NCBI GenBank assembly: GCA_963575745.1
Contig: CAUYUJ010015687.1
Span: 184,372 to 248,371 of the forward strand
Length of the DNA: 64,000 bases
DNA from: Prorocentrum cordatum
Taxonomy: Eukaryota > Sar > Dinophyceae > Prorocentrales > Prorocentraceae
Direction: 5' to 3'
The notes under the pieces were generated by a model. The model saw only the letters and a program-made list of their open reading frames with translations, was not told the DNA's origin and ran no database searches. A program made the translations under genes and the position numbers. Every line of letters starts with the position of its first letter. Position 1 is the first letter of the stretch. Positions 4,508-44,120 of the stretch are shown in pieces.

Positions 4508-6034
4508 GAGTGCATGAGGAATGCAGTGCAGCAGATTGATGAGTTATGTTACCGTCGAGTTGTTTCTATGGACGTACTGGGCACGCAGCTGCATAGTGAA
4601 TATAACTGTTCTGTACATCGTGATGTTTCTTTTCGCCTAGACTGTGCTCGTCGCGCATTTTACTCTCAGGCAGGGTATTTCAGGTCGCACTGTATTCCTC
4701 TCAAGGATAAGCTGCGGAGATACCAGGACAGAGTCCAGAGCCTGGCTCTGTATGGTATGGAGACCACCACTGCAGATTCTTATACTCTCTCGTTTCTCCA
4801 TTCCTTCGAAGGGAAATGCCTGAAGATGATGATCTCTTCTCGAAAAGGCCCGACGGAAACGGAGCAAGCTTATCAGCAGAGGAGATATCATGTCGCACGG
4901 GAACGTTTCTTGAAGGCTGGGTACTCCTCTCTTGTCCAGCGTTATCTGATATTGCACTGGAATTTCGCAAAAGACATTGCAAGTTTCGCAAATGGCATGA
5001 TTGTTGAGAAAGTGATTGACTTGAAGGCGGCGGAGAGGACATGGCGCGATTCCCGTATGGCGAGTTTATGTTTTGGACCGTACACTGACCGCACTCGTAC
5101 ACTTATGAGCGAGACGATGAGACACTTTGGCAACTGGTCGGAGGCCTCTTCTTACAAACGTCGCTGTCGAGGTACGGAGAGTATTGGACAGAGATCATGG
5201 CAATATACATTAGCTGAGTTTTTCGGAGATGATTGGTGGATTCATTTCACAGGCTCCCAGCTTGGATTTATGCAATACGCCACGCACCTTTGTACTCATA
5301 GCATGCTTCAATGTTTCCAGGAGGTGTCGACGTGCGGACCTGTGAGTTCGCCCGCATATTTGGCGCCCTCCGAGCATGGTGAAATCCAGGTGAGCACGGA
5401 TGATAGTCCGATGGCTGCTGAGAAACTTGCAAAGCGCATCGCTCTTCATAATATGAAAGCAACCCGTTGGAACCTGGAGGCCCCTGGAATCCCTCTGGAG
5501 GTGGTGGGTGACTCGCTTCTCGTGGTTAGCTGGGCTACGGGACGGTGGCGTGCAGATAATAGATCATATGCGGATAGAATATCAAAAATTATCAATACGC
5601 TTGATGGGCTTTGTTGCAGCTATAATATACGACCTCCAGCGCCGGGTATGGATCTTATTCGTCATGATTTTCGGGAGTGGAACACTCGTGCCGACGTTCT
5701 AACACACCAGGCCCGAGAGGGCCAGATTTCTAGTTCAGAATGTAGTCCGTATACACATGATTATGAGACAGAATTTTACGTTGCTGCTGCTATTCGGGCT
5801 GGTTTCGATGGCGGCGTGTCGTCTGAGGGATGTGGGTGCGGTTGCTGGATAGACATAGGCCTCAAACCTCGGTATTGGGATCGACGGGACCCCGCTCAGC
5901 TGATATGGAAGTCAGTTTTTGAGAGGGCTTGGCTTATTTCTCCGACCACAACTGTTACTGATACAGAACTCAGTGCTTTGGAGTGCATCGTGACTGCGCT
6001 CCCACAGGCAGTTCTATGGTTATCACAGACTTGA
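4508..6034 (+). CDS. LINE ORF2 C-terminal fragment: RT thumb, FFGxxWW linker, permuted RNase H
   Basis: The frame is open from the truncation point to TGA 6032-6034, about 508 codons with no break. Order: end of RT/thumb (LGTQLHSEYNC, then FEGKCLKMM, typical of LINE thumb regions); the linker with SIGQRSWQ and FFGDDWW; then RNase H motifs in the order GDSLLVV, REWNTRADVLTH, FDGGVSSEG, TVTDTELSA. In a normal RNase H the DGG and T..EL motifs come first. The frame has no start codon of its own because it is truncated, so it is probably not translated. Its intactness points to a recent insertion. Confidence 0.88.
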   Translation, partial: ECMRNAVQQIDELCYRRVVSMDVLGTQLHSEYNCSVHRDVSFRLDCARRAFYSQAGYFRSHCIPLKDKLRRYQDRVQSLALYGMETTTADSYTLSFLHSFEGKCLKMMISSRKGPTETEQAYQQRRYHVARERFLKAGYSSLVQRYLILHWNFAKDIASFANGMIVEKVIDLKAAERTWRDSRMASLCFGPYTDRTRTLMSETMRHFGNWSEASSYKRRCRGTESIGQRSWQYTLAEFFGDDWWIHFTGSQLGFMQYATHLCTHSMLQCFQEVSTCGPVSSPAYLAPSEHGEIQVSTDDSPMAAEKLAKRIALHNMKATRWNLEAPGIPLEVVGDSLLVVSWATGRWRADNRSYADRISKIINTLDGLCCSYNIRPPAPGMDLIRHDFREWNTRADVLTHQAREGQISSSECSPYTHDYETEFYVAAAIRAGFDGGVSSEGCGCGCWIDIGLKPRYWDRRDPAQLIWKSVFERAWLISPTTTVTDTELSALECIVTALPQAVLWLSQT

Positions 6035-22577: not shown

Positions 22578-23948
22578 TTCTGGGAATTTCCAGCCACGTC
22601 TTGGGACGAGCCTGAGGACCAGGCTAGGCTTCTGGAGCAGTTGGGTCTTGGCAATTGGCTTGAGACAAGGGAGCAGTGGCTTCAGAGGCAGACTTCATTA
22701 GATCTTGACGACGACAGGCTCATCAGCCCGACGGTCCCCCTTACTCGTACAGAAGGGTATCGCTTCGATTCAGTTCTCAGGGTTGCTTCAGCTCAACTAC
22801 TTAAACGACGCAGAGAGGAACAGGGCTTTCGAAATCGTTGGAATATCCCCGAAGATCTCCTTAGAGGCGACGTAGGAATTATGTCGAGCTCCGTGGAAGC
22901 AGCTGCTGCTACTGCGGGTACTAAGAGACAGCGAGGTCCTGATGTCCAGGCGCGCAGGACCCAGACGCTTGCACAATTCACTGACCCCTTCCAGCGTATG
23001 ATGATTGAGGGAATGTTCAAACAGGAAGACGTAGGTGACGATATCCGTGAGACTGTGGAGGCCACAAAGACAGACATCAAGAGGATGGACGGAGTTTTAG
23101 CAGAACACACTAAACGTATGGACGAGACGGATAAACGTATGGACGAACTCGAGAAAACACTGAAAACGGTTCAGAATGGGAGTGCGGTGTCTACCTTCAG
23201 TGCTGGGAGTGGCCCCGCTGACGGGGGCGGTGGAGGAGGCGGGGCTAGGAGCCAATTCTCTCCAACATATATCGAGGTCAAGGGGTGGGTTACGGACTGG
23301 GCCAATCATCAGAATCGTTGTGCTCAAATGTTGACTTCTGACGACACCATGATACTCGTGGACAATATATCCAAAGTGATTGCCTCAGATGACCAGGCCT
23401 TTCTCAGCAAGGAGGGGACAGAGCGTATCAATGCGGGTCGCTACATGTTCGGCAGTTGTCGCATCAAATTTCTTCCATTCACTGATCGAGAAGTGTTATA
23501 TCGTTTCCAGAAGCTTCTCAGGATCATTGTGACTCCCACTGCGCAGCGAGCCCCCTTGCCAGAGGGGACGACTATTCCAGACCCCAGCGTGCTCATCGCA
23601 GGCATGACGCAGGTCATCGACCCGACTCAATTACGTTTCAATATCGAATCAGCTCCCTGGAAGCGCGACCATGTTCGTGCAGTTGGTCGCTTCTGCGGGG
23701 CCTGGCGTAACGTGTGCCAGCGCCACAACTTGGTCCTGGAGGTGAGGGGAGAGGTTGGCCCCCCGAAATCGAACATGTGGGTCAAGGCTCAGGGCGACCG
23801 ACTCCTCCGCCCGATCTGTATCGCTGAATTCGGAGCAGCCCAGACGTGGACGATCCATGAGACGCAGTGGGGCCAACTTCAGGTGAAGTTCCCAAATCTG
23901 ACGATCACAGCGACGGACTTCGAGGTCGAGGTCAACCGCAAGGTGTGA
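22578..23948 (+). CDS. LINE-2 ORF1 protein (coiled coil plus conserved C-terminal domain)
   Basis: The frame is open from 22578 to TGA 23946-23948. Counting from 22641: residues ~34-55 hold a GYRFDSVL motif followed by basic KRRREE; a basic KRQRG follows ATG 22881; residues ~132-180 form a coiled coil with heptads; a Gly-rich linker lies near 192-204; YIEVKGW is at ~210 and APWKRDHVRAVGRF at ~338-351. Both C-terminal motifs recur in LINE-3 and LINE-4. ORF1 proteins of this class bind RNA and assemble the LINE ribonucleoprotein. The start is unclear: a strong-context ATG (22566) is in frame but followed by TGA at its fourth codon. The next in-frame ATG (22881) would exclude the conserved GYxF segment. 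Confidence 0.82.
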   Translation, partial: FWEFPATSWDEPEDQARLLEQLGLGNWLETREQWLQRQTSLDLDDDRLISPTVPLTRTEGYRFDSVLRVASAQLLKRRREEQGFRNRWNIPEDLLRGDVGIMSSSVEAAAATAGTKRQRGPDVQARRTQTLAQFTDPFQRMMIEGMFKQEDVGDDIRETVEATKTDIKRMDGVLAEHTKRMDETDKRMDELEKTLKTVQNGSAVSTFSAGSGPADGGGGGGGARSQFSPTYIEVKGWVTDWANHQNRCAQMLTSDDTMILVDNISKVIASDDQAFLSKEGTERINAGRYMFGSCRIKFLPFTDREVLYRFQKLLRIIVTPTAQRAPLPEGTTIPDPSVLIAGMTQVIDPTQLRFNIESAPWKRDHVRAVGRFCGAWRNVCQRHNLVLEVRGEVGPPKSNMWVKAQGDRLLRPICIAEFGAAQTWTIHETQWGQLQVKFPNLTITATDFEVEVNRKV

Positions 23949-23951
23949 CCG
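23946..23951 (+). other. Candidate readthrough stop TGA-CCG between ORF1 and ORF2 of LINE-2
   Basis: ORF1 and ORF2 share one frame, separated only by this TGA. From 23949 the frame is open through the endonuclease start (G-C-W-N). The first in-frame ATG (HMRACGG) lies behind the endonuclease Asn, so initiation there would remove a catalytic residue. LINE-3 and LINE-4 have the same arrangement with TGA-CGG. Confidence 0.6.
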
Positions 23952-26900
23952 AATCGGCACCGGCTGTCGGGGATCAAGTTGGGATGCTGGAACCTCGACA
24001 AGGCTGGTGAGAACAACTTCAGAGGCGTGGAGGTGCTCAACCATATGCGTGCATGTGGCGGTCTGTTCGCGCTTCAGGAGGCCCAGAATATAATTCATGC
24101 AGATGCCGCCCGTCTCGGATGGCAGATCAAGCATAGTGCCTGCAGGAAGGCGGGGCTCCTCTTCGATCGAAGTTGGGCCTCGACGTCCAGGGAATTCGTT
24201 ACTACTTTCTCTAGATTCGCCATTGGTGTGTTCGGTACTTCCATCTCGCCCTTGGTTGTCTGCTCTCTCTACCTGCCCGATTCTCATCGAGAAGATTGCG
24301 AAGCGGAGTATGAACTCACGCTTGAGCGGGTGTCTGCCACTTTCAGAAGCCTCAGACACAGGTATAGCCAGGCCAGCTTTGTTTGTTTGCTTGACGGGAA
24401 TGTTGAGCTACCGCCACTATGTGAGTTAGAATGTAATGGGGAATTGTATCTTGCCACGGGAGAGGGCTTGAGGAAGGAGGTCAGGACCTTGGCATGTGGT
24501 ACGGAGGAGAGGGAGCGTATCAACAGGAGGAGGAGGATGATGGAGATGCTACTGGGGTTCATGCAGACCCACATGTTTAAGGCGGCCAATACCTTTTCTG
24601 CAGATAGGCGTCCTACTTGGGAAGCGTGGGGCGAGCAACGTAGCTTTGGACGAATTCAGAAGGTGCTCGATTACATCTTGGTGCCCAGCCGCTGGGAGTG
24701 CTCTGAGTGTGAAGTTTCTTGGTGTTATGCAAGAGGAGGAAGGAGGAATAGGAGTCGATTAAGTGATCATGCACTTCTAACTGGGCAGTTTGCATCGCCT
24801 GGCCGTGTGATTGTGCGACGTGACGACAGGGGGCGGGTGGAGCCGCCAGCGCCCTCTTTGGTAGGATATCGATGCGTGACATGGGGCGATGAGTTCAATG
24901 CCAGGAGGAGGGTGGATCGGAGCTTGGGAGATGTTGTGTTTCGTGGGATTCCCGCGCGTTCTCTCGAGATGGAGCCAGCCAGCTTGCCTAGCACGCTCAT
25001 GCAGTCTTTTGTTGCTGCTCCTGACGTGGACTTTACCACGGCGCAGAGTGGCAAGCAGAGGCCACCTGTGAGGCCGACCGAGTTGACTCGTCTTTTGGAG
25101 AGATGGCGGGAACTACCGTCAGACACGACTCCAGAGGAAAAGAAACGTTTCAGGAGTGAGATTAATCTACATCGCCGTCGATATCGCAGAGATGCTGCAG
25201 CCTGGAAGTGTCCCCTCAATCGTCGAAAGACTCGTCATCATATTAAACACTTGGTGGTGGAAGGCCAGGAGACGGAGGACAGGGAGGTTTGGAGGAAGGA
25301 GCTCGACAGTTTCTGCAGAAATAAGCTTTCATCGGATCAGATGCGGGAGGAGAACGCTAGTATGATGGAGGAGATCAAGGAGAAGGCGAGGGAGGAGCTT
25401 TGTAGCAGCACGTATTCGACCATCACTATGGCGTTACTCGGACGTGGGCGGGCGCGCCTCCGTACACAACGAGCCACAGGGCCAGATCGAGTACCGTGTG
25501 AGGTGTTAAAGTGTCTCCCTTGGACGGTATTGCGCAACATCCGACGCCTGTTCGACGATATGCTACACATGTGCACGCCGTGCCCCTCCTCATGGCGTGA
25601 TAGCCTCATCTCCTTTATGCCCAAGCTTCCTGGCATCACGGATCTTAGGGACGGTAGGCTTCTATGTATGCAGAACGCTATTGCACGATGGTATAGCACA
25701 TGTATTGTTATCTTGGTGGAACAACATGTCGAGCGAAACGGTCTCTTTCGCCCTCTCGGACTTTACGGCTTCCAATCTAATCGCACCACGAACGAGATCA
25801 CGGCGAGTTTGAAACACATCGGCCAGCATGCTTCTACATGGGGAAAGGGGGAAACAGCACATCTGGCCAATGCAGATATCCTACAAGCCTTCGACCATTG
25901 CACGGTAGCCAATGTTAGACGGGGTTTACAGCACGCGCATGTACCTTATCATCTTCAATATGCATTTCTTGATCCACTATGCGATAGTGTGGGGACGGTT
26001 TGCCATGAAAGTATCGAGGTGGAGGGTGTGAGATGGGATAGATGTATTAGAACGGGCGGAGCCGAGGGACCCCTAGGTTTCAATCTTATTATTGCTGCGA
26101 TGTGGCAGGAAACCTTCCGACAATGGGATAGACAGAACATAGGCTATCAAGTGTGTTTTAAAACTGGGGACCCCATGGAGTCTGGCAAGTCGTCCTACAC
26201 GTCGGTCGCCAATCACTTCGTATGGGCAGATAATTGCTACATCTTGGCACGAAGCAGGGAAGAATTGGCACACATGATTCACGACCTTACCGTTAGACTC
26301 CAAGATTTCGGCATGCGCTGGAAACCCTCAAGCTTGCTTTACATGGTCTTCGGAGCCGACGCTGCGAGAGATGCAGAGGGGCAGATCCTATCTTCAGCCG
26401 ACTTGCTTGTACCCTTCTTGAATGACGTAATGCGGTTCAGGCGTGTTACCGAGATGACGGTTCTAGGCGTCCAGTTGTTCTCTGATTATAAGTACTCCTC
26501 ACACCTTGACGTGGGCTCTAGGATTGAGGCGGCTCGTCGGACATTTTATTCCCAGGCAGGATATTTTCGGAACAAAAGCACGCCTCTTAAGGATAAGTTC
26601 CTACGGTACCAGCAAAAGGTTCAGAGTATTGCCCTTTTCGGTGCGGACGGCTGCGCGGCCGACAAGGATAGCCTCCATGCATTGCACGCGTTTGAGGGCA
26701 AGTGTTTATGCTTCATGCTTCGATGCCGCCGAGAACCAGACGAATCCCATGCTACATGGAACGAGAGAAGATACAGCGATGCCAGATCGAGGTTCGCAGA
26801 GGCTGGGTACCGCAGCTTGGTCCAGAGATTTCTCCGAGCTCAGTGGCTGCTGGCAAAGGATGTCTCGGCATATGCGCAGAGGTTGTATCAGGGAGAGGAC

Positions 26901-27941
26901 ATGACGGACGAGCATAGAGCATGGAGTGATGCACGCATGTGTTTGATTGCCTTTGGGATAAGTTATGACACGCTGCGCACACTTGAGGGAGAAGCCCTTC
27001 GGGCTTTCGGCAAGTGGAGGGAATGTGGAGTTAAGAAACGCTGGAGGTCAGGAGGGCAAGCGATCGGACAACGTTGTTGGCAGACACCCTTTCATGAGTT
27101 CTTTGGCCCACGGTGGTGGGAAGTATTCCAAGGTGGCCTTCATGCCTTCATGCAGTTTGCAGCTCATCATTGTACACCCTCTATGCTCAAGCTTTTCCAG
27201 AAGAAATGCAAAGGTATCCATGACGGTAACTCCCCCGTCTTTCTGGCTGAACGAAATGAGGAGTATGTTGTTACAGATGACGATTCTCCCGCTGCGCGCC
27301 TGCGATTCAGTAAGAGATTAGCTATCCACAATATGAAGAGCACATGTTGGGACGTGACTTCAGGAGGCGTGCCGTTGGAGATCACAGGAGATTCTCTTCT
27401 TATCATTTGCTGGCTTTGCGGCCTCTGGAAGGCCGATAATCACTTATACCAGACACGTGTTGATAATATGATTAATTCTTTGGAAGGAATGTGTTGTATG
27501 TATGGTGTCAGACCTGCTGAAGCAGGACGCGATCTTCTCAAGCATGAGTTTCGGGAATGGAACGAGAAAGCCGACCTCCTTACCCACCAGGCCCGCGAGG
27601 GCCCCCAATGCACGAACGAACAGTACCAGTTGCAGCCATACGAACAGTCATGCTATGAACCTTGCCTCATCAAAGCGGGCTTTGATGGTGGTGTGTGCAG
27701 CCTGGGAGCAGGAAGTGGAGCTTGGATTCAGATTGGACTGCGGTCTCGATTCTCCCATCTATCGCCCACCTCTTCCTTCTGTGAATCCCCACAGATTATC
27801 TTCAAGGACGTTTACGTTTGCTCCTTCGCTCTCCAAGACGGGTCCACGGTGACGGATGCGGAACTCTCCGCTGCAGAGTGCGTTATTGCAGCACTCCCAC
27901 GGGTTTTGCAGGCCTATTTTAGCGATAAGTTGTGTGATTGA
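23949..27941 (+). CDS. LINE-2 ORF2: APE endonuclease, reverse transcriptase, circularly permuted RNase H
   Basis: Intact frame of 1330 codons; numbering from Leu 23979. Endonuclease: N5 (GCWN), E34 (LQEA), LLDGNVEL, H264 (LSDH). RT: TGPDRV; LLCMQNAIARWYS; GFQSNRTTNEI; motif A with D633 (ADILQAFDH); motif B GGAEGPLGFN; motif C WADN with D751-N752 where F/YADD is usual. Thumb: FEGKCLCFML. Linker: AIGQRCWQ and FFGPRWW. RNase H motifs are in the order GDS (D1138), EWNEKAD (D1199), FDGG (D1236), VTDAELSA (E1295), so the first half of the usual fold follows the second. Role: nick the target, prime reverse transcription and degrade the RNA strand. No ATG precedes the endonuclease motif; readthrough of the ORF1 stop is inferred. 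Confidence 0.92.
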   Translation, partial: PNRHRLSGIKLGCWNLDKAGENNFRGVEVLNHMRACGGLFALQEAQNIIHADAARLGWQIKHSACRKAGLLFDRSWASTSREFVTTFSRFAIGVFGTSISPLVVCSLYLPDSHREDCEAEYELTLERVSATFRSLRHRYSQASFVCLLDGNVELPPLCELECNGELYLATGEGLRKEVRTLACGTEERERINRRRRMMEMLLGFMQTHMFKAANTFSADRRPTWEAWGEQRSFGRIQKVLDYILVPSRWECSECEVSWCYARGGRRNRSRLSDHALLTGQFASPGRVIVRRDDRGRVEPPAPSLVGYRCVTWGDEFNARRRVDRSLGDVVFRGIPARSLEMEPASLPSTLMQSFVAAPDVDFTTAQSGKQRPPVRPTELTRLLERWRELPSDTTPEEKKRFRSEINLHRRRYRRDAAAWKCPLNRRKTRHHIKHLVVEGQETEDREVWRKELDSFCRNKLSSDQMREENASMMEEIKEKAREELCSSTYSTITMALLGRGRARLRTQRATGPDRVPCEVLKCLPWTVLRNIRRLFDDMLHMCTPCPSSWRDSLISFMPKLPGITDLRDGRLLCMQNAIARWYSTCIVILVEQHVERNGLFRPLGLYGFQSNRTTNEITASLKHIGQHASTWGKGETAHLANADILQAFDHCTVANVRRGLQHAHVPYHLQYAFLDPLCDSVGTVCHESIEVEGVRWDRCIRTGGAEGPLGFNLIIAAMWQETFRQWDRQNIGYQVCFKTGDPMESGKSSYTSVANHFVWADNCYILARSREELAHMIHDLTVRLQDFGMRWKPSSLLYMVFGADAARDAEGQILSSADLLVPFLNDVMRFRRVTEMTVLGVQLFSDYKYSSHLDVGSRIEAARRTFYSQAGYFRNKSTPLKDKFLRYQQKVQSIALFGADGCAADKDSLHALHAFEGKCLCFMLRCRREPDESHATWNERRYSDARSRFAEAGYRSLVQRFLRAQWLLAKDVSAYAQRLYQGEDMTDEHRAWSDARMCLIAFGISYDTLRTLEGEALRAFGKWRECGVKKRWRSGGQAIGQRCWQTPFHEFFGPRWWEVFQGGLHAFMQFAAHHCTPSMLKLFQKKCKGIHDGNSPVFLAERNEEYVVTDDDSPAARLRFSKRLAIHNMKSTCWDVTSGGVPLEITGDSLLIICWLCGLWKADNHLYQTRVDNMINSLEGMCCMYGVRPAEAGRDLLKHEFREWNEKADLLTHQAREGPQCTNEQYQLQPYEQSCYEPCLIKAGFDGGVCSLGAGSGAWIQIGLRSRFSHLSPTSSFCESPQIIFKDVYVCSFALQDGSTVTDAELSAAECVIAALPRVLQAYFSDKLCD

Positions 27942-28399
27942 TGATTCTCATTTGTGTTGTTGCCTTCATGCGTGCACACATTGTGTTGATGTACACACTC
28001 CTTATAAGAGCTGCCGGAGGCCACCGCCTAAGCCGCCCCCCACGTGCTTGGCGTGGTGAGGCTTTCGCCTTAGCCGCTCGGTGGCCCGCGTTTGGCGTGC
28101 CCGCCCGCCTCGGACTGGACGGGGCCTTAGGGCCCGTGTGTCCGCGAAACGAAAAACCACGTTTTGGGTAGCGTATCAACCAGCTCTTACACCATTCTCT
28201 AACCTGTTCCAACACCTTTGCAGTCTCACATGTTGTGCTGCATCCTTTTCCTTGCTCCTGCATCCTATTCCGATGCCTATGCCACAGTGGCTCGGCAGTG
28301 TGATGATAAGAAGTGCCTTCTCTAGCTACCCTGTGCTCCGTTTGGGAGTCTTAGGGCTCAGCTGTCACAGCTGTCCGCGCCCTGACTCAAACTCAAAAA
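27942..28399 (+). other. LINE-2 3' UTR
   Basis: Non-coding tail from the ORF2 stop to the insertion point. It contains CTTATAAGAGCTGCC, similar to AATAAGAGCT in the LINE-1 tail, and GC-rich blocks. It ends with ACTCAAACTCAAAAA directly against the target ACCAGG. No poly(A) signal or long A tail is seen. Confidence 0.7.
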
Positions 28400-28431
28400 A
28401 CCAGGTTGACGGTTTACCGACGGCGCCCAGT

Positions 28432-32607: not shown

Positions 32608-35600
32608 GGCGGTAGGGCTGCGACAGAGACCGTGGTCGCAACCTGGAATGTGCAGAAAATATCCGACGGTCAAGTACCCAACCTGGTCGCTGCATGTGAA
32701 GCCAGGTCAATTCAAATGGTGTGCCTGCAAGAGTGTGAGCATACCAGTGCAAATACTTTTAACAGATGTGGATGGGAGATTCACTATAGCTCCTGCTCTA
32801 AGGCGGCGGTTGCATGGTGCAGGGATTGGGCACCACATGTGATTGCTCGACGGAGTGGGGTACGATTTGCGTGTGTTGAATTCAGGGGTGCTCTAGCTAC
32901 ATCAGTGTATCTACCATGTGTGATGCGTGATGTGGACCACTTGGGGGAATATTTAGATGTACTTACTAAGTGCAGTGTTACTATGTTTCAAACGACACAG
33001 GCTGGAGTCATACCATGGGTGGGGATGGATGCTCAGACGGAACTTGAACCAGATATGCTGGGAATGACGGGAGGAGGTCTTATGCAGGTGGACGGGAGGA
33101 GGGAGGAGGCGAACTATCATGCAGAAAGGAGGGACATGCTGATGAGGTTCATGAGTACTTGGGGGATCTGTGCGGCGAACACATATGGAGACCGACGTAT
33201 CACACATATACCGTACTGTTCCACACATGTGCAGCGTGTGCTTGACTATATACTCATCCCTACACATTGGTGCGCGGATGAGGCAAGAGCTCACCAGGAA
33301 ATGAGATGCCAGGTCCAGTTTGTGGAACCCATCAAAGCTACGCCAGGTATACGTGCAAAAGCCAGTGCCTATAGTGATCACGCTCTGGTCTGGGTAAATC
33401 TCAAGACGACGGAGATCAGGCGCCCAGCTTTGCCACCCCGCCCGGTGTCCATGGTTGGCTGGCAGCCGACGGACGACACGGCGAGGAACATGTTTCGTGT
33501 GCTTGCGGATGTGTCGATTGAGGGACTTGCATCGGACACGGTAGGGACGGACCTGCAGCAGGTCGGACGGGTACTCTTGGAGACGGCAAAGCTTGTGGAC
33601 CACACTAAGGGGCGCCCCAACTGCAAACCTATTCAGAGGCCCAGGGAGCTCATAGAGGTGGAGTCTGCCATCAGGCGTGGGGCCCTTGGGAATACTCGTA
33701 AACAACTGCTGCGTAGGAGGAAGACCCTTAGGAGACAGCATAGGAGGAACCAACTCCTGCAGGACCACAGGGGATCCAGTAAGACCTCACGGTGTATCCT
33801 CAAGGAGCTGGAGTGTGAGGGTGTGCTGACAATGGACAGGACTAGGTGGAGTACGGAGATCACTAGGTATGCGACGGCGTCTTACACGAACTCGGAGGAG
33901 GAAAAACGGACTTTGGAGGCCTTTCAGGAACTCAGACACAACGACCGTGGGGTGGAGGGAAGAGTCATCACGATGGGCATGCTCATGCAGGCTCGTGCGT
34001 CTTTGAAGCCTGGCACGGCACCCGGCAGCGATGGAGTCGTTGCGGAGGTCATTCGTGAGTTGCCGTGGAGGAGCCTCTTGTTTGTGCGGCGTGCTTTCCA
34101 GAGGATTTTCGAGCAGGGAGCCTCCAGCCCTGAGACGTGGAGGCAGCTCAGTATCCAACTTGTGCCGAAGATGAGGGATGCTACACGACTCTCCAACACC
34201 AGAGGGATTTGCCTGATCAGTGTGATGAGTAAATGGTACATGGCATGTGTGTTGCAGTTTATTGATGTATTTCCTGTGAACCGACGGTTGTGCACATGCG
34301 GATTTGAAAAGGATCAGAAGGTTACTAACGTCACGGCACCACTATCACATCTTACTAGACATGCAAATGTGTGGGGGAAGGCGGAGTCCATGCACGTGGG
34401 AGTCTTGGACATACACAAAGCTTTCGATAATGTCACACTGCGCACTATCATCAAGGCCATGCTGTACCTTAAGTACCCTGTGTGCCTCATCAGAGCCATT
34501 GTGGAGCCCATGCTGGATAACATTGCTACCTTTGAGTTTCAGAACGTGTGCGGCGATGAGGTGAGATACAACAAATCGGTCCGAACGGGAGGTAAGGAGG
34601 GACCCATACTTTTCAATATTGTCTTGGAGGCCATCTGGGGATCTGTGATTCAGACTTGGGATACCTTAGGATACGGTGTCCGACTGGAAGGGGAGGGGAC
34701 GGACGGTGCTCTTGTACACCACTTCTTGTGGGCGGACAATGTTGCGCTCTGTGCTGCATCGCAGCTCCAGCTACAACAGATGATCGGTATGATGACGGTA
34801 ACACTCAGACGGGCAGGGATGGACTGGAAGGAGGACTCTTTGGCGTATGTACTTTTTGGCCAGACGTACACAGGTGGCGATCCGCCGCTGCTCTGCCCGC
34901 TCTCGCCAGCCATCTGTGCGATTTCTGGAGATGAGGATCTCCCAGAGCACTTGCGCTCTACTGTCGTTATGCCGAGGAAGGAGGAGGTGGAGGTACTAGG
35001 AGTGAAGCTCAGCTCGGAAATCAAGGGATATCACGGCTTGTATCATCGACTGGAGAAAGGGAGGAAGGCCTATTTTGCCGACATCCAGTTTTATCGCTCC
35101 AGATCGGTCTCACTCAAAGAGAAGTTTCGCAGGTATGCCGCTCGTGTGCAGTCTGTGGTGTACCACGGATGTATAGGCTGGCCGTGCAATCTACGACTGC
35201 TGGAGAGGATTAAGGTCTGGGAGGGGAGGTGTCTCAACGGTATGCGAGGATTACACAAGAGGGAGGAGGAGACGTGGGAGGAGTTCAGGGACAGGACCAC
35301 ACCGAAGTCATACGAGCTATTCTTGCAGGCTGGCCACTGCAGTCTCCTAGAGAAGGTGGTCCGAGCCAATTTCGAGTTTGCGTTGGAGCTGGCCCAGTTT
35401 CATGATCGGGCCTTCGCCTCCACGGACTTGCGTGGGGCACGAGCCTGGCGTCAGACGCTGCAGGCCATGTTACACTGTGCGGGGGAATGGTCTCTACGGA
35501 GGGACACACTTGTATCCATGTTCACGGGAGCCAGGAGGAGGGAAGGTACGAGGAGAGTGGGAGGGAGAGCGCATGCAAGCACTGACAGCTGGCATTGTCT

Positions 35601-36386
35601 TATGCTGGCGGCTAGTGGTAATTTACGTTGGTTCAGCATCAAGTGGAATGCGACGGACTGGTGGAATGTAGTTGCGTGCATGACAAAATACAGCCTAGAT
35701 GGGAGCCCATCTTCAGGAAACCGCCCTGTGCTCCTTGCCCTGTGGATACGTGGGACTCCCCTGAGGACTCCGACAGGCTCGCTCGTAGGATTGCCCACGG
35801 ATATATCAACGAAACTGTCTGGCAGGAGGGCTCGGAGAGCTCATTGTTGGTTGAAATGACTGGTGATAGTATGTGTGTGGTGAACTGGGCCCGAGGGATC
35901 TGGGAATGCCGTGATCGTTCGTACCGCAGGAGAGTGCGCGGTCTACAAAACGATATGAATCAACTGGCGGAGGATTACGACATCAGGTGTGCCACTGTAG
36001 GGACGGATCCGTGGAAGCATATCTACAGAGAGTTCAATTGTGTTGCGGATGAGTTGACTTGGGAGGCGAGGAGGGGAAGGACGGGAAGATGGATTGACTT
36101 CAGATATTTACGACAACAGAGACATTGTATCAAACGTATCCGTGGAGGATGGGACGGTGGCGTGAGTGTTGAAGGCTCTGCTCTAGGTTGCTATGTGGAG
36201 GTCTCATTTGGGGAAAACCCCTGGCGACGAGTTTTCCAGGAGGCTTCTTTACTCCCTCTGGGGGCCACTGTTACAGATAGCGAGCTCACAGCTTGTGAAC
36301 GCCTGCTCCAAGGTGTTCGGCAGATTATCTCTGAGATCCTCGGGCCTCCAACCCCAAAGAGGTTGAGAGGGCGTGAGGGACCCTAG
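32605..36386 (+). pseudogene. LINE-3 ORF2: endonuclease, RT, permuted RNase H, one frameshift
   Basis: Frame 1 runs from the TGA to 35859. Endonuclease: ATWNVQK, VCLQECEH, YSDHALVWV; the GDFN-type motif is changed to GMDA. RT: APGSDGVVAEV; ICLISVMSKWY; motif A VLDIHKAFDN; motif B GGKEGPILFN; motif C WADN. Around 35690-35740 the frame shifts to frame 0, carrying RNase H motifs as MTGDSMCVV, REFNCVADELTW, GWDGGVSVEG, TVTDSELTA, again permuted. The frameshift disconnects RNase H, so the copy is probably dead. Confidence 0.85.
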
Positions 36387-39853: not shown

Positions 39854-42800
39854 TGCAGAGGTGCCAGTCGGGCTGGTGGCCCCACAGCCCAGCATAGGCT
39901 AGGCACCCAGAATCTTATGAAACAAGGGGCTACAGCAGATCGGGGATTTGCTTGCATGAGGGCACTTCTTTCTCACGGCTGTGAAGTGTTCTGTTTACAG
40001 GAGTGTGAACACTTACCGTCCAATTCAATTCAGCTGCTTGGCTGGCACCTAGTTTATTCAAGTGACAGGAAGGCTTCCATAGCTTTGAGGGGGAAGTCTT
40101 GTCACAACATAGTTCGCTCTTGGAGTAATCGTGCTCGTCTTGCTATTGTGTGCTTGCGTCATCCGTGTATCTTTCTTGTCTCTGCGTACTTTCCGAACAG
40201 ATCGGAGAATCGTTCATTGGAGGTGGCTTTTGAGATGCTGAAAAAATCGAAACAACTTATCGGAGGTGGAAGGAGGAATGCAGATACACATGTGAGCTTG
40301 TGATTGCAGGGGATTTTAATGTTGAGCTTGCGCCCGACATCACCTGTTCAGGAGGCACGGTGACTGGAGGTGCTGTGCAGATTCTCGACGGGAGGGGATA
40401 TGGGAATGATACGGAGGATAGACGGTGGGAGGAGGACATGTGGCGATCTCAGCTGCAGGAGTGGCTGTGTCGGATGCGCTTGCTGGCAGTCAATTCTCTT
40501 GGCTCGCCGTACTCTCGGCAGCCGACTTTCGTGCATCGTGCGAATAATGCTCGACGCAAGTCTGGGGCGAAGACTATTGCGCCAAAAGTGCTTGACTATC
40601 TCATGGTCCCACAATCCTGGGAGGGTGACTTGGTTGAATGCCGAACGGATTGGATCCCAGAGACCCCGACTACCAACTTCTCGGATCATGCCTGTGTCTA
40701 CGCCGAGTTCCATATGCAGAACCCTCAGGTCACGAAATATCAAGGCCCCCCTAGCCACCACACAAGCCACAAAGAGTTCCAATCGTATCGGGAGGAGGCC
40801 CAATTTCAGGTCCTGGCGGACGTCCAGATCCCGACGGTGCCCCCACAACGTCTTGCTGAAACGATTGCTGGACATGCGTTACCGCTCCTCACGGTGAGGG
40901 CCCCCAGGTACTCTCGAGGGCTCCCGCCGAGTAAGACTCCTCAGCATGCCGAGCTGGAGGTACAACTCAGAGAGGCACGTGCTAGGAAGGACAGAGCGTT
41001 GGCTCGGGACCTTCGACGTCGCATCAGACCGCTGGCGCGGGAATATCGCCGACGGAAGGTGGAGTGGGAGGCGCTACCATCTAGGAAGGGGAGGAGGACA
41101 CGTGTGACGGAGTTGAGGGTGACGGACACTGGGGGAGGGGATATGGGGCCTACGACTATGATGACGGAGGACAGGGAACTGTGGGCGGAGGAGGTGGAGC
41201 GATATGCTGTGCAGAGTATGACTTGTGATGACTCCAGAGCCCGCAATCGGGAGCTTGTGTCCACACTGCGTCGCCATGCATCTCCATCACAGCCTCTTCG
41301 GACAACACGCTTACGATTACATGCTCTACTATTCTGCAGGCGCGGAGCAGGCTCCGAACAGGACGGGCCTGTGGGCCCGACGGCATCTCGGTTGAACTTC
41401 TCAAGTCTCTTTCGTGGAGGTCAGTGCGTTCTATTGGTAAGGCTTTCTCTGATATATTCAACGGGCTTCGCCCGACGCCAAGGGAATGGCAGGAAGTATA
41501 CCTAACACTTATGCCGAAAACGAGCAAACTGGAAACATTGCGACAAACAAGGAATCTGCTTGTCGGAAATACCTTGGCCAAGTGGTATCTCACGTGTGTG
41601 ACGATTTTACTGGAACGATGTGTGGAACCCTTCATGAGTGATATGGCGGTTTACGGTTTTACCAGCGGACGACGTTGCTGGGAGATTTCATCGGCCATGA
41701 AATGTATTGCACACCATGCTTCCACATGGGGGCGAGATCAAACGGCGTGGCTCCTCAGCTGTGACATCGAGCGGGCGTTCGATGCAGTGACGTTGCCGAC
41801 AGTCTCGAGAGCGATGACGGCCCTTGTGATCAGTGCACGGCTACAGTATGCGTTATTTGAGCCTCTCTCATCTACTTCATGCACGGTGCTGTTTGAAGGA
41901 GTGACAATCCCCAATGTGCAGTGGGATAGGTCGCTCCGTACTGGGGGTACCGAATCACCTATCGCGTTTACTATTGTCACTATTGCTATGTGGCGTGATG
42001 TGATTGCTCGCCTGGATCAGCGCGGTGTCGGAGTCGAGATGCCATGCCATGATGATCATTGTCGGTATGCGCGTTGGAATCATGCTCTCTGGGCTGACAA
42101 TATTTTTCTGGCCGCCAAGTCAGCATCGGAGGCGCAGGTAGCGGCCGCTGCCTTCACTACTGCTCTCAGGGATTGGGGGATGGAGTGGAAGGAGGAGAGT
42201 CTAGAGATGATGGTGTGTGGTACTCAGTGCACTGATACGGTCACGGTTCAGATTGGCTCGCGGATTGTACCTTTCAAGCATGTTGGGAGTTTGAATGTGC
42301 TGGGGTATCAGATTCCCAGAAGTTTCACTTCTATCCACGCGGATGTGCAGGAGCGCGTCCAGCAGGCCCGAAGGGCATTCTTTGCGCAGGTGCAGTATTT
42401 TACGTGCAGGGCGCTGCCTCTGGTGAAGAAGTTTCGTCGATACCAATCGACTGTGCAGAGCCGTCTTTTATATGCAGCAGAGGCCATCACGATTGACAGT
42501 GAATGTGTGAGGGTTATCCATGCGTTCGAGGGTATGTGTCTTTTGAGAATGTCAGGGAGGAGGAAGCCAGGAGATGTGGGGTGGGAGGTATGGCGGCCAG
42601 CTGCACTGACACGAGTCAGGACAATCTTCTGCGATGGGGGTTTCCCGTCGGCTGTGCAGATGCTGTGTTGGAAGAGCTGGGGCATGATGCGCTCGACGAG
42701 GCAAAATTTACTATCTTTTGAGGCGGACAGGACGGCAAGGACGGAGGTTGAGGTGGAGGGATCAACGACTCAACGTGCTAAACGTGTTCGCTTTGCGGGT

Positions 42801-44060
42801 GGACGGGGGGAGGATGTACCTGCAGCGACTGTGATGGAGGTGGAGGGGAGGATTACGGACATGGAGAGGCGGCTGGAGGATCTTTGCTCGCAGGTCGCCT
42901 GTTCCATTGCCCGCTCACAGCCGATGCCCTCTGGAGAGGGAGCTGCCCACACTCTCAGAGACGAGCCACTTACCGTCTCAAAGGGGAGGAGGGCCTTTCG
43001 AGACTCCCGACGTGCGCTTATGATGTGCAATGTTGGCTGGGTCACGGCTCGCGACACAATAACATAGGTTCTACGACAACACGGCAACAGGGCCTTATCT
43101 AGTTCGGGCAAGCGGCTTCGTGGAGGCCCTGTGTCTGTGGGCGGTCGGTCTTGGCAGTTCCCCTACACTCAGTTCTTTGGGGAAAAGTGGTGGGAGTCTG
43201 TGCGGGGCGATTGGGTTCAGTTCTTGGAGGTATGGAAGCAACTCCTTACACAATACAACAAAACTAAGGTCTATGATTACTTTGTGGTGTCTTGGAAGGG
43301 CTCTCCTAATGGACCTCGAGGCTCCCCTGAGGCTCGAGAGAAGGCCGATGCTGAGGCGGTCGACATCGCGACCAACCCTCTGCGCCCCAAGTACGACCCC
43401 AAAGAGTCCGCCAAGCTTGCAATACGTTATGCTATGATCCAGGAACGTGCGACTGTGTGGGATATATCCTCAGAGGGTTTTGCTGCTGAGTTCAAGGGTG
43501 ACTCATTACTTATCTGCTCCTGGCTACAGGGGAAATGGAGATGTGAGAATCGTGGCTACTGCAAGAGGACAGCTGCCATGATTGATTGTACCTTTGAGCT
43601 CGCTGCGTGTTTCAATCTGAGGCCTGCTGCCTTGGGACGTGAGATATGGAGACATGAATTCAGGGAGGACAATACACGAGCGGATGAATTGACGCATGAG
43701 GCCAGATGTGGCCGCACATTCTACAGAACTCATTGTTATCTATATCCATTCGAAACTTATCTCTTACCGTTCGCTATCAGGGGAGGCTTTGATGGCGGGG
43801 TTGACCAGCAAGGATCAGGATGTGGTTTCTGGCTTCAGATCGGCTTAATCAATACTCAGTGCAATCCCAGTGAGATAGGCATCGCTTCCGCGAGAACCGT
43901 GGGCCCCTTCCCTGCTGGGCATGAGTTTGCTGTTTCTAGTGCCGTGCCCCTCGTTTGGAGGGATGTGGCCGAGGCCGCGTGGCTCCTCGAAGGAGCTACA
44001 GTCACATAATGTGAATTGTCGGCAGCCGAAGCGCTGCTCAGCGCTGCCCGTGTGCTTCTG
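39851..44060 (+). pseudogene. LINE-4 ORF2: endonuclease, RT, permuted RNase H, multiply broken
   Basis: Endonuclease in frame 2 (FCLQECEH) continues after a frameshift near 40290 in frame 1 (IAGDFNVEL, FSDHACVYA). A second frameshift near 41280-41300 leads to frame 0: GRACGPDGISVELL; LLVGNTLAKWY; motif A SCDIERAFDA; motif B GGTESPIAF; motif C WADN; thumb FEGMCLLRM. An extra charged insert (about 42720-43010) precedes TAG 43065-43067. Then FFGEKWW and RNase H motifs FKGDSLLIC, REDNTRADELTH, FDGGVDQQG, and TVT-stop-CELSA with TAA 44007-44009 next to the catalytic Glu region. Dead copy; motif order agrees with the other LINEs. Confidence 0.83.
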
Positions 44061-44120
44061 CGGGACCGGTCCTCGCCCAGCTGCACTCAGCTGGGAACGC
44101 GAGTCCAAACAAACAAACAA

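Follow-up and report, generated by a model that had tools for sequence, protein, structure and literature searches.

A predicted circularly permuted, archaeal-type ribonuclease H domain at the C-terminus of ORF2 in dinoflagellate LINEs

Several copies of long interspersed nuclear elements (LINEs) lie within a 64,000-nucleotide stretch of the genome of the dinoflagellate Prorocentrum cordatum (assembly GCA_963575745.1, contig CAUYUJ010015687.1, positions 184,372 to 248,371 of the forward strand), which is referred to here, at its full length, as the window. One of these copies, LINE-2, carries two open reading frames (ORFs), the second of which, ORF2, ends in a domain where the four catalytic motifs of ribonuclease H (RNase H) stand in circularly permuted order. 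RNase H is among the most widespread of nucleic-acid enzyme folds, and in other LINEs it removes RNA from the RNA:cDNA hybrid in target-primed reverse transcription. The features of LINE-2 are given below, with b for strands and a for helices of the RNase H fold and RT for reverse transcriptase.

22641..23948, plus strand: ORF1, 435 amino acids, for which Pfam gives only weak coiled-coil-type matches, none above cut-off
23949..27941, plus strand: ORF2, a 1330-amino-acid frame with an endonuclease-like N-terminus, RT and a C-terminal permuted RNase H
25761..26330, plus strand: RT core, Pfam RVT_1, residues 605-794, E 8.9e-6, under the Pfam cut-off in LINE-2
27288..27335, plus strand: conserved helix ahead of the domain, model residues 104-119, outside the canonical fold (alignment and AlphaFold2)
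27369..27596, plus strand: first half of the domain, corresponding to the C-terminal half of the normal RNase H fold, with b4, aB, aD, b5 and aE (AlphaFold2 and hhalign)
27390..27392, plus strand: Asp of GDS, D1138 (counterpart RNase H Asp-70), at the end of b4
27573..27575, plus strand: Asp of NEKAD, D1199 (counterpart Asp-134), at the start of aE
27597..27653, plus strand: linker between the canonical C- and N-termini (AlphaFold2)
27654..27929, plus strand: second half of the domain, corresponding to the N-terminal half of the normal RNase H fold, with b1, b2, b3 and aA (AlphaFold2 and tandem-profile alignment)
27684..27686, plus strand: Asp of FDGG, D1236 (counterpart Asp-10), in b1
27861..27863, plus strand: Glu of TDAEL, E1295 (counterpart Glu-48), in the first turn of aA
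27942..28158, plus strand: 3' untranslated region, with a GGGCCTTAGGGCCC hairpin and a short A run

Counted in frame from 23979, the motifs follow one another as GDS (1137-1139), EWNEKAD (1193-1199), FDGG (1235-1238) and TDAEL (1292-1296). A first-pass annotation of the window, made from the letters alone, had placed the four motifs at these residues, and all of them were found there in the ORF2 frame. It had also read the swapped order in LINE-1, LINE-3, LINE-4 and LINE-5, which holds for each of these copies, in LINE-4 and LINE-5 only across a stop or a frame change:

4514..6034, plus strand: LINE-1 copy, 3' part of ORF2, permuted RNase H open
32632..36386, plus strand: LINE-3 copy in two frames, permuted RNase H open at 35628-36386
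40300..44080, plus strand: LINE-4, a broken copy whose end is approximate; a stop interrupts its permuted RNase H directly before the AEL helix
47422..49610, plus strand: LINE-5, a broken copy whose end is approximate; its permuted RNase H changes frame from one half to the other

The permuted region of LINE-4 spans 43131-44009, with the stop codon just ahead of CELSAAE, and in LINE-5 GDS and NAEAD lie in one frame and FDGG and TGAEL in another. In the alignment, these domains are 46% (LINE-1), 28% (LINE-3), 35% (LINE-4) and 26% (LINE-5) identical to that of LINE-2, and such identities, together with the many further genome copies, argue that the motif order is not due to chance. Single motifs are weak evidence on their own and motif scans in this genome call for caution, because an unrelated dispersed repeat on the minus strand, translated ..DDSNNTNSFADLAR.., mimics N..AD at 23 places (e.g., 29034, 15789 and 1902).

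Relatives of the domain are present both in protein databases and in large numbers in the genome. A protein search returned two full-length relatives, P0001 (94% identical to LINE-2) and P0002 (38%), and eight shorter ones; all four motif positions occur in permuted order in eight of the ten (P0001-P0005 and P0007-P0009), while P0006 shifts frame past FDGG and P0010 is without the first half. P0004 and P0010 carry the name Prorocentrum cordatum and P0006 lies near the genomic copy L069 by eye, and some of the database proteins may come from this or a close species. A protein search started from P0002 found no match besides P0002 itself. The genome (4.13 Gb in 21,875 contigs) was searched with the LINE-2 domain, where 150 of 5439 first-look candidates were scored, and with the LINE-3 domain, where 150 of 5448 were, so that the counts are lower bounds drawn from the best matches. 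The LINE-2 domain has at least 152 matches; of those listed, about 30 sit in frames of 1330 codons, and a second family, about 57% identical and partly in 1317-codon frames, is also among them. For the LINE-3 domain there are at least 150 matches, many in 1260-codon frames, and in all 150 listed the alignment to the query is colinear, beginning no later than residue 8 and extending to residue 220. The first half of LINE-5 as a query retrieved relatives that include 1318- and 1422-codon frames, and the full permuted series stands within one open frame in L069, L070, L071 and L050, the last of the LINE-3 family. When the permuted profile was run against viral and prokaryote contig collections, 27 and 142 pattern stretches were returned, respectively, none of which was confirmed at that sensitivity.

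The profile comparisons used a permuted profile of 11 non-redundant domains. P0001, P0004 (which ends after AEL), P0006, P0008 (close to P0005) and P0010 were left out, as were L072, L073, other family copies and the broken LINE-4 and LINE-5, and LINE-3 of the window is represented by L050. The normal-order profile, N1, comprises six of 20 loci of the same genome (L009-L028), two with stops and those at least 90% identical to a retained locus having been removed; its RVT_3 domains sit in LINE-type ORFs, as seen by Pfam in L020 and L010 (a near-copy of L009) and by eye in L016-L019. In hhalign, the native-order profile aligned to a single N1 over 59 columns of the second half only (normal columns 71-132; score 46.8), whereas N1 doubled in tandem gave one alignment across the join, with a score of 60.3 over 121 columns and all four motifs paired. 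Once its halves were re-ordered, the permuted profile matched a single N1 over 119 columns (score 62.4, E 7e-10). Among 200 controls with the second tandem copy shuffled, none reached 60.3 (maximum 51.1), and the reversed control scored 13.1. Against PF00075-type RNases H, doubling brought no gain (28.0 to 28.1) and re-ordering a small one (32.2).

PDB sequences were searched up to E 10. With the re-ordered profile five entries were retrieved (best E 0.0049), each an RNase H or related to one, and the native profile retrieved five, four of which are of this kind (best E 0.11); the LINE-2 domain alone or the whole of ORF2 gave no RNase H or RT match. Pfam on LINE-2 ORF2 found no RNase H in the C-terminal region. 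Single sequences scored at best 18 bits re-ordered and 16.1 bits native against RVT_3, under the Pfam cut-off of 21.6; three of five re-ordered sequences matched below this cut-off, and LINE-2 and LINE-1 gave no match. That Pfam scans and sequential fold searches miss the RNase H is what is expected of a permutant. No second complete RNase H of normal order was found in ORF2: Pfam gave none in ORF2 of LINE-2 or in P0002, and none is hidden downstream, since the match among five displayed copies ceases about 217 bases past the stop codon, the point at which the 3' end of the element was set by eye.

AlphaFold2 was used to model the domains of LINE-2 and LINE-3 as single chains. For LINE-2, 14 of 18 ten-residue blocks (131 to 310) average at least 91 in predicted local distance difference test (pLDDT) score, and for LINE-3, which is 28% identical to it, the mean pLDDT is 84.2 and the predicted template modelling score 0.80. 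Both models show the elements in the order b4-aB-aD-b5-aE/b1-b2-b3-aA rather than the canonical b1-b2-b3-aA-b4-aB-aD-b5-aE, with each catalytic residue in its canonical element. The homology to RNase H and the circular permutation proposed in the first-pass annotation are supported by the tandem-profile alignment and two models. Sequential structure searches (Foldseek, VIA-align) with both models gave low-scoring matches to other folds, and RNases H were named for one half only; the lack of RNases H among the top matches carries no weight in either direction. One alternative is a coincidental motif series in another alpha/beta fold, such as the CinA-like or HPF-like ones among the top structural matches. 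The five top matches of each search, however, show low Z and an identity of 4-12%; together with the strong re-ordered match to the RNase H profile, the RNases H among the PDB sequence matches and the placement of the catalytic residues in canonical elements, this leaves such a reading, contradicted by the profile comparison, next to negligible. In another alternative, the halves would pair between two ORF2 molecules as a domain-swapped dimer, with each active site built from two chains, instead of forming a true single-chain permutant. Against this stand the confident modelling of both halves in single chains of two members and the shortness of the linker (16-23 residues), whose length differs little among all the rows cut, and we regard the dimer as decidedly improbable.

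A conserved helix precedes b4 (27288-27335); in alignment numbering, R113 is invariant and A115 and W124 are nearly so. The idea that it derives from a duplicated aA gained no support from a profile extended upstream, which aligned over the helix only loosely.

Across the 11 domains, the Asp of GDS, the Asp of DGG and the Glu of AEL are present in 11/11 and the Asp of NxxAD in 10/11, being replaced by Asn in P0003. The Arg of RExN/S is found in every domain and aligns with the Arg of normal-order LINE RNase H, and the spacing from GDS to NxxAD is 61 in 11/11. Among LINE-2-family copies, which were picked by protein similarity, the ratio of nonsynonymous to synonymous substitution rates (dN/dS) is 0.04-0.14 at dS 0.04-0.28, a range that covers pairs with the window copy or with L074-L077. 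The corresponding ratio of proportions of differences (pN/pS) averages 0.12 over 28 LINE-2-family pairs and 0.15 over 190 LINE-3-family pairs. Among the near-identical L074-L077 there are at most four replacement changes and no synonymous one, the pattern to be expected of fresh copies. L074 and L075 lie on different contigs and yet agree in all 699 bases compared, a sign that the element may have moved recently. The census and the low dN/dS support the conservation of the four acidic positions.

These data bear on two further explanations. In the first, the permuted fold would be kept while the nuclease has been lost, and the domain would serve as an RNA- or cDNA-binding or structural tail of ORF2. 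The Asn of P0003 is in keeping with it, as is the loss of catalytic residues from RNases H of some long terminal repeat (LTR) retroelements, reported in PMC5348765; but all four acids persist in ten of 11 diverged domains, the RExN/S Arg in all of them, and dN/dS is low, so we consider it unlikely, although worth keeping in view. The second sees the remnants of two half-decayed RNase H domains or an artefact of local rearrangement. The helix ahead of b4 could be the relic of a lost aA, over which hhalign can stretch a loose alignment. Yet one compact arrangement recurs in open frames of five families (LINE-2, L050, L069, L070 and L071), the GDS-NxxAD spacing is constant, no other RNase H is found by Pfam in LINE-2 ORF2 or P0002, the element ends about 217 bases past the stop codon, and selection is purifying; this explanation is already contradicted and highly improbable.

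In a tree of 23 domains, made up of the 11 permuted ones, six normal-order RVT_3 domains of the genome and six PF00075 domains, a single branch with moderate support separates the permuted domains from all others (90/92, under the strict mark and with a long-branch warning), and permuted and normal-order RVT_3 domains group together against the PF00075 types (98/95). This moderate grouping, together with the open frames of several families, upholds the view of the first-pass annotation that the permuted order is lineage-wide and not a local rearrangement. The grouping fits a single permutation event, short of proof, and most simply the permutation arose once, in the dinoflagellate LINE clade. 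It would have come about by the usual route, in which an RNase H is duplicated in tandem and the outer halves are then lost; no tandem-RNase H intermediate was seen among the copies examined.

The closest known systems are the archaeal-type type 1 RNases H (PF13456, RVT_3), such as LC11-RNase H1 (3u3g, 4h8k), Sulfolobus RNase HI (3aly, 2ehg) and Halobacterium RNase H1 (4e19). The permuted domains resemble them in motifs, active-site Arg, strand and helix content, best PDB sequence matches and partial structure matches, and differ in that the halves are swapped and the ends lie between aA and b4, not before b1 and after aE. According to PMC5348765, an Arg in the active-site loop marks archaeal-type RNase H (aRNH), which is found in plant and oomycete retrotransposons, namely Ta11 L1 LINEs and the LTR elements Tat, Chronos and Archon. 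These domains are likewise archaeal-type, carry the D-E-D-R-D signature and were acquired by retroelements, whereas their order is taken to be normal from the aligned signature, the term "permut" being absent from the text available. Also close are the normal-order RVT_3 RNases H of LINE-type ORFs of the same genome (L009-L028), which give the best profile match of this analysis (60-62), group with the permuted domains in the tree and share the RT motif W[AS]DN. In L010 and L020 the RNase H is in normal order and N-terminal to the RT core, unlike the C-terminal position in the permuted LINEs. SymbioLINE-Dnmt and other Symbiodinium LINEs, compared by description only, are also dinoflagellate LINEs with RT in ORF2, but have a DNA methyltransferase ORF1, and the accessible part of their description does not mention permutation (PMC5890265).

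No earlier description of a natural permuted RNase H was found in the open-access PMC literature, a search outside which most subscription journals fall. The accessible portions of PMC5408684, PMC5890265, PMC2628886, PMC7824862, PMC3150331, PMC5348765, PMC3985635, PMC11453091, PMC3578095 and PMC3710099 describe none, and a term search of the RNase H superfamily survey among them (PMC3985635) did not return "permut" in the text available. To our knowledge, no natural RNase H permutant has been described.

Some normal-order elements of this genome seem to carry an RNase H inside the RT region, which would itself be unusual. Pfam places RVT_3 at 501-622 and RVT_1 at 746-970 in L010, and at 501-625 and 742-973 in L020, and L009, L012, L013 and L015 look similar by eye; the whole frames of L010 and L020 were used, as Pfam had no match in L009 or L020 when given just their initial 1500 bases with X for each stop. 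The RNase H of this type is apparently inserted between an RT motif-1-like stretch (GKS.SDGVVGEML) and the remaining RT. RT motif C, which is WADN in LINE-2 (26223), reads W[AS]DN and not YxDD in LINE-2, LINE-3, LINE-4, P0002, L009, L010 and L020, the second Asp being Asn, and is thus common to LINEs with a permuted and with an internal RNase H.

As for the rest of LINE-2, ORF1 ends in a TGA with ORF2 directly downstream in the same frame (GTG TGA CCG, 23946-23948), and the two may be coupled via readthrough or reinitiation across this single TGA. The endonuclease-like N-terminus of ORF2 has an SDH motif at residue 272, and Exo_endo_phos matches weakly in LINE-3 (Pfam E 0.11); RVT_1 is matched at E 3.3e-12 in LINE-3 and 1.6e-12 in LINE-4. 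Many copies in the genome with differing 3' flanks indicate LINE-type dispersal, and this and the RT core are as in APE-type LINEs (non-LTR retrotransposons). A short G+C hairpin lies near the 3' end, GGGCCTTAGGGCCC in LINE-2 (28122-28135) and GGGCGCACGCGCCC in the LINE-3 family (tails of L049-L052 and L055), and copies of both families have little or no poly(A) there. Seven LINE-2-family copies were sought for the comparison of 3' flanks and five displayed (L002, L003, L005, L006 and L008), all five with GGTTGACGGTT[TC]ACCGCCGG directly after the 3' end; the element may favour this sequence as its target, or the flank may be a tail that varies between copies. A similar repeat lies in the window near 28400, not immediately after LINE-2.

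Weighing sequence comparison and modelling together, we consider it very probable that ORF2 ends in a circularly permuted type 1 RNase H of archaeal type, fixed in a dinoflagellate LINE clade and probably active. The chain would run from b4 (GDS) via aB, aD, b5 and aE (NxxAD) through the linker to b1 (FDGG), b2, b3 and aA (AEL), so that the old C-terminus joins the old N-terminus and the ends come to lie between aA and b4. From the four acids and the active-site Arg, which are as in archaeal-type RNases H, we infer the usual two-metal active site and a role in retrotransposition, where the domain would clear the RNA:cDNA hybrid of its RNA as target-primed reverse transcription proceeds. The fold is predicted to be monomeric, with a working active site. 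The permuted order would be retained under purifying selection. It is also likely, if less firmly so, that this active natural permutant became fixed at an early stage of a large clade of dinoflagellate LINEs and that the RT-RNase H tether moved from b1 to b4, altering how the RNA:cDNA hybrid meets the nuclease.

If this is true, it would explain why domain scans overlook the RNase H of these elements, Pfam finding none in LINE-2. It would further mean that a natural reordering of the chain is compatible with the RNase H fold and its active site, and dinoflagellate LINEs would offer a system for asking how permutations arise and how the coupling of RT and RNase H depends on the tether.
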